A stretch of DNA of 64,000 nucleotides. It comes from Chitinophagales bacterium. GTDB taxonomy: Bacteria; Bacteroidota; Bacteroidia; Chitinophagales; Chitinophagaceae. The DNA lies in NCBI GenBank assembly GCA_017303395.1, contig JAFLBN010000001.1, positions 248,001-312,000 on the forward strand. Reading direction: 5' to 3'. Shown here piece by piece: positions 6,400-11,199 of the stretch. Every line of letters starts with the position of its first letter. Position 1 is the first letter of the stretch. A model generated the notes under the pieces. It was not told where the DNA came from, searched no databases, and saw only the letters and a list, made by a program, of their open reading frames with translations. The position numbers were made by a program, and so were the translations under genes.

Positions 6400-6416
6400 A
6401 TACTTAAAATATGCTG

Positions 6417-6450
6417 AAAGCCTGTATGGACAATCCATACAGGCTTTTTT
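6417..6450 (+). terminator. Rho-independent terminator after dapD-mscS
   Basis: AAAGCCTGTATGGA and TCCATACAGGCTTT form a long near-perfect stem with a 4-base loop, ending in a T run. Confidence 0.88.
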
Positions 6451-6473
6451 ATTGTACTTGTCTTTGGGCAGGT

Positions 6474-6561
6474 TTGTTAATCAGTCGTTAACCAGTTGCA
6501 AAGGCAGGGTTAACAAGTCTCGATTTTTTGGCAATAGGCCCTTTCCCGACGCATCTTTGTA
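6474..6561 (+). promoter_or_regulatory. Conserved 88-bp promoter module, copy A
   Basis: GTTAA at 6476, 6487 and 6509 with GCAAA at 6498 gives 11-bp phasing. ATTTTTTG follows at 6523-6530 and CGACGCATCTTTGTA at 6547-6561. The module aligns without gaps to 10193-10280 with 55 of 88 identical positions, concentrated in these blocks. TTTG and CATCTTTG, 21 bases apart, match the Bacteroidota -33/-7 layout. It drives the pilin-like gene at 6619. Confidence 0.75.
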
Positions 6562-6618
6562 TCACAATAACAAACAAACACAAACATTAATCAAATAACT
6601 CAAACAAATTCAAACAAA

Positions 6619-7167
6619 ATGAAAAAAGTATTCGCAATCGCAGCTCTGTCATTCGTAGGTATCGCAGCAAAAGCACAAGTTGCTTCTACAGCTACTCAAA
6701 CAGTTAACCTGAACCTGAGCAACGCAATCGAGTTGACATTCACTGGGTCTGGTACTGCTACCGGTGCAGCGGTTAACCTGGCTTTCAACACAGTTAACGA
6801 CTATGCAAACGGTGTTAGCTCTTCTAACCAGGAATTGAAAGTACGCTCTAACAAAAAATTCGGCGTAACTGTAAAAACTAACAATGCTAACTTCTCATAT
6901 ACAGGTTCTACAACGCCTGCTCCCGTAATGCCTGTATCTGGTGTTCTTGACCTGCGTGTTCCTGCAAACGCAACCGGTGGTGCTATCGCTTCTCCATTCA
7001 GCGCATCTAGCTATGCTGACCTGAGTGCAACTGCACAAAACCTGTTGACAAACTGTAACAACGGTGGTAACCAAACATTCAGCATCCAATACAATGCTAC
7101 ACCTGGTTTCGCTTACCCTGCAGGTACTTATACTGTAGATGTAGTTTACACTGCTACGCAACTGTAA
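6619..7167 (+). CDS. Secreted pilin-like / spore-coat-U-like beta protein (DUF4402-type)
   Basis: 182 residues with a clear signal peptide (MKKVFAIAALSFVGIAAKAQ). The mature protein is low in charge, rich in Thr, Ser, Asn and Ala, and built of predicted beta strands. The end, YPAGTYTVDVVYTATQL, resembles the final strand of DUF4402 or spore-coat-U pilin-like subunits (GxYxDxVxVTV). Such proteins form surface fibres by strand exchange in other bacteria; that role is inferred here. Codon use is unusually regular, suggesting high expression. The gene has its own promoter module and terminator, so it is monocistronic. The next gene encodes a large usher-like outer-membrane protein, which supports a surface-structure role. 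Family assignment is moderate. Confidence 0.8.
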   Translation: MKKVFAIAALSFVGIAAKAQVASTATQTVNLNLSNAIELTFTGSGTATGAAVNLAFNTVNDYANGVSSSNQELKVRSNKKFGVTVKTNNANFSYTGSTTPAPVMPVSGVLDLRVPANATGGAIASPFSASSYADLSATAQNLLTNCNNGGNQTFSIQYNATPGFAYPAGTYTVDVVYTATQL

Positions 7168-7198
7168 TCAATCAGTAAGATTTTCATAAGCATAATAA

Positions 7199-7236
7199 AA
7201 GATAAAGCGTCCCAGTAAGGACGCTTTATCTTATTT
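7199..7236 (+). terminator. Rho-independent terminator after the pilin-like gene
   Basis: GATAAAGCGTCC (7201-7212) and GGACGCTTTATC (7219-7230) form a perfect 12-bp stem with a 6-base loop, followed by T-rich sequence. Confidence 0.85.
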
Positions 7237-7392
7237 GGCTAAACTAACATCTATCTGAATGTATCAGCCTCAAACTCACCCCAATACGCAGTTTTTTGCG
7301 TATTTTGCCACGCAAGGAGGATACCTATGTTGTATGCAGCAGGTGCACCGAAGGTCACTACCTGTTTGTATCCAATGCACGCAGCAGTATTA

Positions 7393-10173
7393 ATGAGAAA
7401 CACCCGTACATATCATATCCTGCAGGTATGTCTTATACCTATACTACTTGCCGTCTTTACTACTACCGTTAGCGCACAACTCAGTAAAACAATCTATAAG
7501 ACCATCGTCACGAAAGACACCCTAGTAGCCATGGGCAATCGCGACTTTATGTTCAATAACATAAACGTTACCAACCTGACAGACAAGAAAATCAGTATCA
7601 TTGTTAACGTATATGCACCTGAAGGCTGGGATATGGTGACCCAAAAACTGGTGACGCTTAATATAGAACCCAATGGCAATACCAGCCTACCAATCAGGTT
7701 GGTTCCTACAAAATCTAAAACAGCGGCATGGCAAACCGTACGCATAGAATATCAACTGAATGACGGTATAGAAAAACTGGTGGATACTTTCAGGGTTCGT
7801 GTAAAGGAGTTTACAAAGTTCAAAGCCACGCTACCCCTATCCAGCTACTCTATGGCGGGCTACGAAAAGAATATCAAATTCCCTGTTCAGATAAAAAACA
7901 CAGGTAATACTCCCAACAATTTCACCGTCAGGTTTATCAATGCCTTCCTGCAGCTCGACTATAAAAAAGATTTAACGCTGCAACCCACACAAGACACTAC
8001 CTTCTATATACCGCTGCACATTAACGACAGGCAATGGAATGCCTTGCGTCGTGAAGAAATAAAAGTGCAGATAGGTGTAGAGAATGGTGAAACCATGAAC
8101 ATGATGCAGTTGATAACCCGCATTGGTAGCTCGCTGAAAGATAACAGCTCTGCTTTTCTGGATATGCCTCTGCAGGTAGAGATAGGCGGTACTTCTCAGG
8201 GTACTGACGACATACAATACTATGGTGCACTGCACGGTGCTGTAGATATTACACCACAAGACAAAGTTGCTTTTGACTTGCGTAGCAAAACACTCAGTAA
8301 GGGACAAGCTGCAGACAACAGCATCATGCGGATTGAATATATTGGCCAGAAATGGAGTGCGTCTGCTGGTAACGTAAACGAGCTTACCGATTTCTATATG
8401 GATGGTTATGGCGCCAAATTGGGCCGTAGCTGGTTGCAGCAACGCGACAATATTGGTGTATATGGCATGTTCAAAAGCCGTGCAGGCGATAGCAAACTGG
8501 CTGGCATGAATTATCAATACGGAGGACTGCACCCCAACATCAAGATAAATGGTAACGCTACTGCCAATTTCGATAACGACCGTAAACTAAACAGCTACTT
8601 GTACAAGCAAGGTGGCGAATGGAAAATTGGAGAGGATGGGAAATTGGTTGTAAGTGGCGGTGTGGGTATGGAACAAAGCCTTGCCAATCTTGTAAATACA
8701 GATAAGAACACACAGATAGGTACATCTGTAGGCTACAATTTCAACATAGAGAAAAAACATTTTGCTGCAGTATCTACCTTGCAACTAAACAGCAATGCTT
8801 ATCCCGGTATCTTTAAAGGGCAACGCGCGCAGAACCACGATTTACGTGCCATATTCGGAAAATTCTTTACAGGCGGCTTTTATGAAACCAGTCTTCGCAA
8901 AGCAAACTTTTATCAGGACACTGCATATTTCTCAGACGTATTCAACCTGAAAACAGAAACCTATGGCGCACGCATGGGTGTAGGCTTCAAGGGTGCTAAT
9001 CTCATAGTATCTGCAGCTAATCAATTGCAGATAAACAGTGATACCGGTATTCATGCGCAGTATCGTTTTCAGTATCTGAATCTGAACGCATCTATATCCC
9101 CGTTCAAGCACTTGTTTCTTACGCTCAATTCTTATTATGGCGTTGGTACCATACCGGGGCAGGAAGCTACTACTTCTGTTATTATCAACAGTAATCAAGG
9201 CAATCTGCAATACCGTTGGATAAGCATTGCTGCACGCTATGATAATGGCCCTTACTACTACCACGAATATATTGCATACATCAAAAACCCCGAGGAGTAT
9301 AAGCGCATCATTATAGGCCCGTCATTAGAACTGCCATTGTTCAAGAAAAGGCTGAATATCCGTTCTCAGTTAAACTATGCCAAAACCATTCCCGGCAATA
9401 CAGAAACATCCAACCTGCTCAGCAATATCACATACACAAGCCTTAGACATGGTTTCGACTTCAACGTAATCGGCATTATCCCCATCAAACAAGTACAGGC
9501 CACACCCTATGTCAGTGCTTCGCTGCGTGTCAGGCTGCATACACCGTTCGTGCTGATACGTAAGTACTACAATATGAAACTGGTACTCTTTAAAGACTCT
9601 AATAACGACGGAGAAATGAACCCGGGTGAAGAGCCGATTGAAGGACAGATGCTGGCAATAAAAGGCAGCAGGTTCATTACAGATGACAGGGGTGTTGCAT
9701 TGTTCAAAAACGTAGATAAATCGGAAGAAGGCTATAAAGTAGATTTTGGTTTTGCCAGTAAAATACGCGGATGGGTGCCTAGTGGCGGACCTGTACAAAT
9801 ATTGAAAATGACAGGCAATAAAACCTTCTTTATACCATACAAAGCCAGTAAAATACTGAATGGACAATTGAAACTGGAGTTGGATGACAAGTCGAACCTA
9901 TCCTTCAAATTATCTAACATCAAAGTGACTGCAAAAATCATCAGTCAGGCAGATACCATCACCTACTCTACCCTTACGCAAGAGAATGGTGAATTCTACT
10001 TCAACCTGCCGGGTGGTATGTACACGATAGAGCTAAGCCCGCTTGCATTTGACGACAACTTCCGCCCTACTACCTTCTCTCAGCAGGTAGATCTTATCAA
10101 TAACAGCGAGAAGATGGTTTACTTCGACATCAAACAGCGTAAGCGTTCCATCAACATCAAAAAGCGCGATTAG
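7393..10173 (+). CDS. Large usher-like outer-membrane protein with Ig-like ends
   Basis: 926 residues from the ATG at 7393, which starts directly with a signal peptide (MRNTRTYHILQVCLIPIL ending VSAQ). An upstream ATG at 7327 has a strong AGGAGG (7315-7320) six bases before it and would add 22 residues; that start is possible. Residues about 30-150 look like two NEW3/chaperone-like Ig domains. A long middle section of alternating aromatic and polar strands looks like an outer-membrane barrel. From about residue 730, KLVLFKDSNNDGEMNPGEEP followed by TDDRGVALFKN is an SdrD-B/carboxypeptidase-regulatory-like domain, as in the C-terminal parts of some fimbrial ushers. A second such domain ends the protein. 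Role in exporting or anchoring the neighbouring pilin-like protein is inference. Confidence 0.75.
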   Translation: MRNTRTYHILQVCLIPILLAVFTTTVSAQLSKTIYKTIVTKDTLVAMGNRDFMFNNINVTNLTDKKISIIVNVYAPEGWDMVTQKLVTLNIEPNGNTSLPIRLVPTKSKTAAWQTVRIEYQLNDGIEKLVDTFRVRVKEFTKFKATLPLSSYSMAGYEKNIKFPVQIKNTGNTPNNFTVRFINAFLQLDYKKDLTLQPTQDTTFYIPLHINDRQWNALRREEIKVQIGVENGETMNMMQLITRIGSSLKDNSSAFLDMPLQVEIGGTSQGTDDIQYYGALHGAVDITPQDKVAFDLRSKTLSKGQAADNSIMRIEYIGQKWSASAGNVNELTDFYMDGYGAKLGRSWLQQRDNIGVYGMFKSRAGDSKLAGMNYQYGGLHPNIKINGNATANFDNDRKLNSYLYKQGGEWKIGEDGKLVVSGGVGMEQSLANLVNTDKNTQIGTSVGYNFNIEKKHFAAVSTLQLNSNAYPGIFKGQRAQNHDLRAIFGKFFTGGFYETSLRKANFYQDTAYFSDVFNLKTETYGARMGVGFKGANLIVSAANQLQINSDTGIHAQYRFQYLNLNASISPFKHLFLTLNSYYGVGTIPGQEATTSVIINSNQGNLQYRWISIAARYDNGPYYYHEYIAYIKNPEEYKRIIIGPSLELPLFKKRLNIRSQLNYAKTIPGNTETSNLLSNITYTSLRHGFDFNVIGIIPIKQVQATPYVSASLRVRLHTPFVLIRKYYNMKLVLFKDSNNDGEMNPGEEPIEGQMLAIKGSRFITDDRGVALFKNVDKSEEGYKVDFGFASKIRGWVPSGGPVQILKMTGNKTFFIPYKASKILNGQLKLELDDKSNLSFKLSNIKVTAKIISQADTITYSTLTQENGEFYFNLPGGMYTIELSPLAFDDNFRPTTFSQQVDLINNSEKMVYFDIKQRKRSINIKKRD

Positions 10174-10192
10174 ACATTACACAGCCCCTTAC

Positions 10193-10280
10193 TTGTTAAG
10201 CGCTCGTTAAGCGCTTGCAAAACAAGCGTTAACCAAACGGCATTTTTTGCACTATACATTACAAGCGACGCATATTTGTA
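10193..10280 (+). promoter_or_regulatory. Conserved 88-bp promoter module, copy B
   Basis: GTTAA at 10195, 10206 and 10228 with GCAAA at 10217; ATTTTTTG at 10242-10249; CGACGCATATTTGTA at 10266-10280. Every block has the same spacing as in copy A (6474-6561), while a 16-bp stretch between the -33 and -7 elements has no identity at all. It drives the small gene at 10305. The inner CGCTTG-CAAAA-CAAGCG can also form a hairpin. Confidence 0.75.
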
Positions 10281-10304
10281 GCATCAAACAAAACTTCTAC
10301 TTAT

Positions 10305-10574
10305 ATGAATACGCAAGAGAGAAAAATTGCAGCATTTGCACGCATGGCAGAACTGGTTGTTAAAAAACACATCAGAGAACGCGCCCTTAACTCATACGAC
10401 TATCTGGGCAGCATGATTAACAACATGCAGATTATCAACACTACGTTGATGACAACAGCCGTAAATGTTATCAAAAAAATGAGGGAAGACAAGGAGGTGA
10501 ACCTTGATTATATGACGGGTGAATTCCGTAAAATCATTCAGCACTCAGTAGAGCAATATACAATGAAAGCCTAA
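10305..10574 (+). CDS. Small helical cytoplasmic protein of unknown function
   Basis: 89 residues without signal peptide or membrane segment. It is rich in Lys, Arg, Glu, Met and Asn and looks entirely helical (for example AFARMAELVVKKHIRERALN and MTTAVNVIKKMREDKEVN). No family recognised. It is a real gene by context: it has a Bacteroidota promoter module in front, a strong terminator behind, and no overlapping ORF. The promoter module is shared with the pilin-like gene at 6619, so the two are probably co-regulated. Its small size and helical composition would suit a regulatory or adaptor protein, but nothing in the sequence shows this. Confidence 0.75.
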   Translation: MNTQERKIAAFARMAELVVKKHIRERALNSYDYLGSMINNMQIINTTLMTTAVNVIKKMREDKEVNLDYMTGEFRKIIQHSVEQYTMKA

Positions 10575-10589
10575 AGCACTGATAAAATA

Positions 10590-10616
10590 AAAAGCCCCGA
10601 AAGTTTCGGGGCTTTT
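10590..10616. terminator. Bidirectional terminator between the small gene and nusG
   Basis: AAAAGCCCCGAAA and TTTCGGGGCTTTT form a near-perfect hairpin flanked by A and T runs between convergent genes. Confidence 0.9.
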
Positions 10617-10635
10617 CTATGATTTGCTGAATTGA

Positions 10636-11199
10636 TTAAGCAATTTTTTCTACCTGCATGTAGTTCAGTTCTACAGGTGTAGCACGGCCGAAGATTTTCA
10701 CTACTACTTTCAGTTTCTTCTTCTCTTCGTTTACTTCTTCTATCGTACCGTTAAAGTCGTTGAAAGGACCATCTGTGATGCGTACTGTTTCACCAACAAT
10801 GTATGGTTCTGCATAGCCTATACCCTGCTCGCTAACCTCATCCATTTTACCAAACATCTTGTTCACTTCGCTTTTGCGCAATGATGTAGGATGATCTTTA
10901 CCAAGGAAGTGTATAACACCCGATACGTTTTTGATTGTCTGAATCATATCATCCGTCAGCTTACCGTCTGCTGCTTCCAGCATCAGGTAGCCCGGGTACA
11001 ATATTTTTTCGCGCAATACTTTTTTACCGGCTTGTACTTTGAATACTTTTTCAACAGGACACAATACCTGATGAATAGCTGCACCCCAGCCATTTATCTT
11101 TATCTCTTTATCTACGTATTCTTTGGCTTTTTTCTCTTTGCCGCTGATTACACGCAGTACATACCACTTCGATTCCTGTGTTGTAGTAGCTTCAGCCAT
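10636..11199 (-). CDS. nusG: Transcription termination/antitermination protein NusG
   Basis: 187 residues. The N-terminal NGN domain is clear ([20 protein letters not shown], then [10 protein letters not shown] and [13 protein letters not shown]). The C-terminal KOW domain carries [20 protein letters not shown]. NusG binds RNA polymerase, reduces pausing and links it to Rho or the ribosome. It follows secE by 14 bases in an operon with tRNA-Trp. In many bacteria rplK and the L11/L1 genes follow nusG; here a terminator and a convergent gene follow instead. Confidence 0.97.

Follow-up and report, generated by a model that had tools for sequence, protein, structure and literature searches.

Why do two 88-bp stretches in front of two different genes of a Chitinophagales bacterium share the same pattern of identical blocks? 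The stretches, 6474–6561 (module A) and 10193–10280 (module B), lie in a 64,000-nt stretch of contig JAFLBN010000001.1 (the window hereafter; the own genome comprises 3.76 Mb in 44 contigs), upstream of genes for a pilin-like secreted protein and an 89-aa protein, respectively. A first-pass annotation of this DNA had explained the resemblance by one activator that binds a phased GTTAA array and co-regulates both genes. We found that the two stretches are two copies of one promoter module, which is present in about 30 copies in the own genome. The module is probably an activator-dependent promoter of a dispersed regulon, controlled by a phosphorylated OmpR/PhoB-family regulator that acts on a weak primary-sigma core.

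The two promoter copies in the window

The ungapped alignment of 6474–6561 with 10193–10280 was recomputed and gave 55 identical positions of 88; the blocks of identity stand at the positions claimed for them, and relative positions 58–73 contain no identity at all. When 10193–10280 was slid along the window, the next best match on the + strand had 41/88 identical positions and the best on the − strand 42/88. For 300 randomly sampled 88-mers of the window, the highest value elsewhere on the + strand was 51/88, so none equalled 55. The array GTTAA-N6-GTTAA-N6-GCAAA-N6-GTTAA (≤3 mismatches) occurred twice in the window against 0.01 expected occurrences.

Copies of the module in the own genome

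The proposal of the first-pass annotation depended on further copies elsewhere in the genome, and about 30 were found. A search with the four-half-site pattern (≤3 mismatches) gave 27 matches in the own genome, 10 of them exact, and the reversed control pattern gave 0. Among these matches (loci are given L numbers and genomes G numbers below), L028 overlaps another, L029 is chance-like, and L024 is weak by the model R1 described below (E 0.0012), yet the 61-aa open reading frame (ORF) downstream of L024 resembles the one behind match L161 of genome G004. With these three set aside, the remaining 24 sites formed 19 groups at an identity level of 80%: five pilin promoters, all at least 80% identical to the first member, made up one group, two sites made up another, and the others were single. 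Some copies are therefore recent gene-plus-promoter duplications, as the five pilin promoters indicate. Modules A and B of the window fall in different groups.

The 19 distinct sites were selected by the array pattern, and the constancy of their half-sites is in part a result of this selection, with half-sites 2 and 4 being the most constant. The constant features outside the selection were a TT 5' of the first half-site, a third half-site of the form G(C/T)(A/T)AA, a T-rich −33 block, and a −7 block of the general form CATnTTTG, in which the second base was A in 18/19 sites, the TTTG bases were kept in 16–19/19, and the first base was C in 13/19. Some details claimed from the window pair did not extend to the other sites. 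The downstream block CGACGCATnTTTGTA is exact at both window sites and exact nowhere else in the own genome; the CGACG part of the −7 block is not general (columns 72–76 carry 0.05–0.29 bits over the 19 distinct sites); and the 11-bp phased array held, but the third half-site is not a fixed GCAAA.

R1 is a sequence-only model built from 20 aligned sites. It matched 45 places in the own genome at E≤0.5, including 30 at E≤1.3e-5, of which 20 had trained the model and match by construction; the matches in other genomes are independent of the training. The span was equal to the model span in 29 of the 30 strong matches (printed coordinates). Six further matches (L070–L075) align to R1 only from the second half-site onward, and L070–L074 carry extra GTTAA or GTAAA units with looser spacing upstream.

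Genes downstream of the modules

The strong sites stand in front of two kinds of target. Paralogous genes for pilin-like secreted proteins of about 182 aa lie behind 16/30, and unrelated, non-homologous, mostly short ORFs lie behind the other 14. The latter include the gene for the 89-aa protein of the window, ORFs of 28, 31, 68–71, 94, and 95 aa, five hydrophobic ORFs of 20–32 aa, genes for a lipoprotein-like protein of 193 aa and for a protein of 1024 aa that carries a secretion-system sorting tail, and a 31-aa ORF with a long leader. All 14 have a counterpart behind an R1 match in the complete genome G004 (CP075895.1), where the counterparts of L060, L067, L072, and L075 were paired by side-by-side reading of the ORFs, the scoring having used a neighbouring ORF. 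The best score of L073 as well as of L074 was with L157, of which L158 is a near copy, and the arrays are shortened in two of the counterparts, L164 (E 8.6e-6) and L165 (E 2.2e-5). Such a set of 14 unrelated targets with G004 counterparts argues strongly against plain co-duplication of genes with their promoters.

The pilin-like family occupies 24 places in the own genome at E≤1e-15, one being a contig-end fragment. Five of these paralogues have a variant promoter with only two half-sites (mostly GTAAA-N6-GTTAA), followed by ACTACTAA-N-GTTAGTGATGTG; the sites are in L036 upstream of 517, 2428, and 3238 (− strand), in L034 upstream of 11766, and in L044 upstream of 11406 (− strand). These variant promoters suggest a second layer of control.

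The leader upstream of the 31-aa ORF, which is conserved between G000 and G004, extends for about 500 nt behind the module (L192 1240–2030) and contains, as counted by eye, up to 9 CCAACC-CCGUAA-GGUUGG hairpins. Matching leader stretches are present in L185, L188, L189, L190, and L191. Short proteins with a tail of the PLDGGLS..AGVGYG type were seen near or behind modules (L038 13318–13892; L163), and we take them to resemble sorting-signal proteins.

Distribution among genomes and conservation at orthologous loci

A total of 59 genomes were searched, the own genome included, and 15 of them belong to the genus. R1 with E≤1e-5 and stricter filters detected the module in 16/59 genomes: each of the 15 genus genomes had between 1 and 30 copies, and G034, which belongs to the same family, had 12; no copy was detected in the remaining 43. 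The genome-wide scan with a site model that the first-pass annotation had called for thus yielded about 30 copies at home and a set of carriers among relatives, and its suggestion that the shared promoter defines a regulon agrees with the dispersal of the copies and their occurrence in each genus genome. The looser array pattern gave 228 matches summed over the 15 genus genomes, where the control gave 0; outside the genus it matched G034 three times and G036, G046, and G051 once each. All 10 matches of the control pattern lay outside the genus and G034. The pilin-like family (profile A2, E≤1e-10) was found in 17/59 genomes, comprising 14/15 genus genomes, G034, G030, and G032. Module and pilins occur together in 15 genomes (Fisher p 5e-11, not corrected for kinship). 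The module is therefore nearly limited to the genus and tracks the pilin-like family.

Conservation in orthologous promoters had been named as the second point on which the proposal would stand or fall. Between modules A and B lies a gene for a 948-aa protein, and a scan of this protein against named genomes gave 9 loci, including those of Flavipsychrobacter sp. and Chitinophagaceae bacterium IBVUCB1 and LGM1, which maintain the gene order pilin-like, 948-aa, 89-aa. R1 matched at the downstream position in 9/9 loci and at the upstream position in all 7 loci whose contig extends to it. In L135, the downstream module precedes a second pilin-like gene and then the 89-aa gene, and this locus was excluded from the comparison of promoter identity. 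The promoter copies were found by R1 and anchored on half-sites 1–2; with this limit, the pairwise identity of the downstream promoter, averaged over six copies of lower redundancy, was 1.00 for half-sites 1, 2, and 4, 0.95 for the third, 0.74 for the −33 and −7 blocks, 0.53 for the array spacers, and 0.31 for the spacer between −33 and −7. With all nine copies kept, the values were 1.00 for half-sites 1, 2, and 4, 0.97 for the third, 0.69 for −33, 0.81 for −7, 0.55 for the array spacers, and 0.40 for the core spacer. The half-sites were thus retained between orthologues and the spacers diverged, in line with the functional constraint claimed for the blocks.

RNA-like and tiny-ORF targets

An element of about 20 nt, CTCTCTTATCC(T/C)(C/T)TATATG, precedes a terminator hairpin of varying stem in 4/5 of the own-genome tiny-ORF transcripts, in L157, L158, L160, and L162 of G004, and in L116 of G003 and L129 of G013. 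It was the module, not the element, that served to retrieve these transcripts. The transcripts behind the module in G003 and G013 are short, about 100–120 nt, and no tiny hydrophobic ORF was seen in them. A search for the element with one mismatch gave matches in 14/59 genomes, all in the genus (G001 had none), and one control match elsewhere. An R1 module was present upstream on the same strand at 27/34 element loci examined, these being 28 of the 43 matches outside the own genome and six of a further eight, from which the two with three mismatches were excluded. The seven loci lacking a module include L179, which has no array, and L182, in coding-looking sequence. A script scan found a tiny hydrophobic ORF in 22 of the 33 scorable loci. 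Alignment A6 consists of 16 loci chosen by the element, and the constancy of the element in it is a product of that choice.

Element-bearing transcripts may form a multicopy small RNA family, for which an RNA function is offered here as a proposal. When ten RNA-like or tiny-ORF loci were compared with Rfam, three matches were obtained, all for L072 and all sub-threshold (best E 3.3e-4, 33 bits against 114 required), and they were taken as chance. The stretch CTCTCTTATCCTCTATATGT stands directly 5' of the terminator hairpin in L177, L178, L180, L181, and most of L245–L272 (at about 1480–1560 of the locus); among the 59 genomes it was confined to the genus, and most occurrences were on tiny-ORF transcripts driven by the module.

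Proposed mechanism and alternatives

In the mechanism that we propose, a phosphorylated OmpR/PhoB (winged-helix) response regulator would bind the array head to tail with up to four protomers, each on its own GTTAA half-site and turn of the helix, between about −88 and −51. The bound regulator would recruit RNA polymerase to a weak primary-sigma promoter with a poor −33 block and with CATnTTTG replacing TAnnTTTG, and pilin-like secreted proteins, small proteins, tiny hydrophobic peptides, and RNA-like transcripts would be switched on jointly. This mechanism presumes the protein family of the regulator, a role in activation and not in repression, and a signal to which it responds, as well as a single protein that acts on all copies of the module and activates them. 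The distance from the array end to the −33 block is 9 bp, and the weak −7 element combined with the fixed distance of the array fits an activator. OmpR-family regulators typically bind half-sites that follow one another head to tail, one in each turn of the helix, and the four half-sites of the module form such short direct repeats at an 11-bp pitch.

The closest site described elsewhere, as given in extracts of the papers cited here by PMC number, is GTTAAN6GTTAA, the site of phosphorylated SaeR, the OmpR-family regulator of Staphylococcus aureus SaeRS (PMC5083920). Half-site and 6-bp gap are identical to those of the module, and half-sites 1–2 of the exact array matches form a complete SaeR site; several listed SaeR targets have two such pairs, and many encode secreted proteins (PMC5083920). 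The module differs in its four contiguous half-sites with a degenerate third, its Bacteroidota-type promoter, and its pilin-like genes and tiny ORFs. At amtB and glnA of Streptomyces, the OmpR-like regulator GlnR uses four half-sites in tandem, separated by 6 bp and occurring as a-type and b-type variants, but its half-site is GTnAC/GAAAC and it serves a nitrogen regulon (PMC3087709). A regulator of the OmpR family is likely because GTTAA-N6-GTTAA is the SaeR site and four half-sites at this pitch are the GlnR layout. The likeness to SaeR is one of site sequence, and the module is not assigned to the SaeR regulon.

The CtrA box of Alphaproteobacteria is TTAA-N7-TTAA, a sequence contained in GTTAA-N6-GTTAA. 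In Caulobacter, CtrA controls the pilin gene pilA from a multi-site promoter, whose sites, in the extract considered, are separate and do not form one phased array (PMC11264516). As to the core promoter, the primary-sigma element TAnnTTTG of a flavobacterium spans −12 to −5 (PMC9723704). The module shares the TTTG core of this Bacteroidota promoter, its placement being assumed, and keeps the AnnTTTG part, but the first base is mostly C over the 19 distinct sites and the −33 block is weak. The description that suits the module best is that of an operator of the OmpR type combined with a Bacteroidota promoter, a known kind of arrangement. No report of the motif in Bacteroidota was found among the open-licence papers listed in the literature survey; as far as searched, it is new as a regulon.

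The own genome encodes nine OmpR-family DNA-binding domains. The DNA up to about 1.5 kb from these domains contained neither an R1 match at E≤1 nor an exact GTTAA-N6-GTTAA, and loose look-alike pairs near 7/9 were not distinguishable from chance. Autoregulation of one of the nine genes was therefore rejected, and at none of them did we see the arrangement of the SaeR regulon, in which the regulator operon is preceded by its own sites.

Several observations weigh against the reading of the module as an OmpR-type promoter of a dispersed regulon. No OmpR-family gene could be tied to the module, and the only regulators found beside modules are of the LytTR type. The third half-site is consistently off consensus, and the −7 block at the upstream position of the orthologous loci is less alike (0.56 for six copies, 0.52 for all eight). 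Eight of the 24 pilin-like places lack a strong module (five have the variant promoter, two lie close behind another copy, and one is the fragment), G030 and G032 have pilin relatives without the module, and G003 has one module, in front of an RNA-like transcript, and no pilin.

The LytTR genes raise the alternative that the same regulon is activated by a LytTR-type response regulator reading GTTAA repeats 22 bp (two turns) apart, which we consider unlikely. LytTR repeats contain GTT, and the greater constancy of half-sites 2 and 4 would suit such spacing, but half-sites 1 and 3 are conserved too, at 11 bp. In G000, G002, G004, and G012, a LytTR regulator adjoins a pilin cluster driven by the module; a propeller-type sensor kinase was confirmed beside it in G000, and long ORFs are its neighbours in G002 and G012. 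In G034, a LytTR/LytS pair and a module are divergently oriented. In ten further genus genomes, the best LytTR match was 43–50% identical, compared with 37–38% for the best matches listed outside the genus. However, orthologues of at least 70% identity were restricted to G000, G002, G004, and G012 (fragments in G008), that is, to 4 genomes against 16 with modules, and in G011, with 22 modules, the best LytTR match reached only E 7.2e-28. Because of this restriction, the linked LytTR gene was not accepted as the general regulator; the gene is kept as a lead and the LytTR family as a rival. Module-driven genes in two genera have a LytTR regulator and a sensor kinase beside them (L192 4804–8596; L186 16123–17693).

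A repressor or dual-role regulator on the array is quite unlikely. Extra upstream CtrA sites lower and delay expression of Caulobacter pilA in the extract considered (PMC11264516), but the array of the module ends short of the −33 block and does not cover the core promoter, and the −7 element, with its frequent initial C, deviates from TAnnTTTG in the way that activator-dependent promoters would be expected to. A head-to-tail multimer of another family is highly improbable: BldC forms cooperative multimers on direct repeats whose number varies, but its repeats are 9-bp units of AATTNNNN(C) (PMC5859096, in extract) and those of the module are 11-bp GTTAA units. A mere by-product of pilin gene-plus-promoter duplication, which could account for the promoter groups of five and of two, has next to no probability left, being already contradicted by the 19 distinct groups, by the 14/30 sites before unrelated genes, and by blocks retained and spacers lost between orthologues.

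With the activator-dependent, OmpR-type promoter as the preferred reading, a wider one can be offered, which is possible but rather doubtful: one response regulator might run a surface-remodelling programme by means of a portable promoter cassette. The programme would comprise dozens of pilin-like subunits that can replace one another in an undescribed fibre, assembled by means of the 948-aa usher-like protein, together with 20–32-aa hydrophobic peptides and multicopy small RNAs that share the 3' element of about 20 nt. Its RNA branch might predate the pilins, since the only module of G003 stands before an RNA-type target and no pilins are present there. In any case, a look-alike promoter pair becomes a defined, testable regulon in little-studied bacteria, and the interest rests on the breadth of this regulon and on the unknown genes that the module marks. 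The module serves as a search key for genes that are easily missed in annotation, such as 20–32-aa ORFs, RNA-like transcripts, a pilin-like family without Pfam match, and the neighbouring gene for the 948-aa protein. Should the OmpR-type reading be true, a GTTAA-N6-GTTAA code is common to Staphylococcus and this Bacteroidota genus, which poses the question whether the recognition was inherited or arose twice.

Features of the window locus

The features of the locus are collected in Table 1. Transcription starts were predicted from the −12 to −5 placement of TAnnTTTG (PMC9723704, in extract).

Table 1. Promoter modules, genes, and terminator-like hairpins at the window locus (window coordinates).
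Feature	Coordinates	Strand	Remark
Module A array: GTTAA 6476–6480, GTTAA 6487–6491, GCAAA 6498–6502, GTTAA 6509–6513	6476..6513	+	R1 match
Module A −33 block ATTTTTTG	6523..6530	+	T-rich over the 19 distinct sites
Module A −7 element CATCTTTG	6552..6559	+	Predicted transcription start near 6564
Pilin-like secreted protein gene, 182 aa	6619..7167	+	One of about 24 family places in genome
Terminator-like hairpin between pilin-like and 948-aa genes	7199..7232	listed on −	Stem of 15 pairs
948-aa protein gene between modules	7327..10173	+	Neighbourhood recurs in 9 named loci
Module B array: half-sites 10195, 10206, 10217 (GCAAA), 10228	10195..10232	+	R1 match
Module B −33 block ATTTTTTG	10242..10249	+	
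Module B −7 element CATATTTG	10271..10278	+	Predicted start near 10283
89-aa protein gene behind module B	10305..10574	+	37–98% identical in 9 named loci
Terminator-like hairpin 3' of 89-aa gene, convergent with nusG	10590..10616		

The terminator scan gave 5 such sites against 3.9 in shuffled sequences. A scan of 6400–10700 for E. coli-type promoters gave 7 sites against 9.7 in shuffles and nothing useful, and the array pattern search of the window showed no module specific to the 948-aa gene.

The pilin-like family has a conserved C-terminal PAGTYT stretch, which recalls usher-pathway pilins; "pilin-like" is used only as a label and comes partly from the first-pass annotation. The pilin-like protein had no Pfam match and no NCBIfam match above cut-off, and the nine matches of its profile to solved structures, at E 0.15–0.81, were taken as chance. 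The 948-aa protein is predicted to be an outer-membrane and usher-like protein and is a candidate for the usher of an undescribed fibre. It had no Pfam or NCBIfam match above cut-off and no matching solved structure at E≤1. With neither a match at a curated cut-off nor a convincing solved structure, the pair was not assigned to the classical chaperone-usher pilins and ushers. Weak matches to Ig/transthyretin-like domains were seen at the C-terminus of the 948-aa protein. One of the orthologous loci, L134, comes from a record titled Azovibrio restrictus (JANLJF010000058.1) and has a 948-aa protein 66% identical to that of the window; because the locus is of the Bacteroidota kind, the bin or the name of this record is probably wrong.

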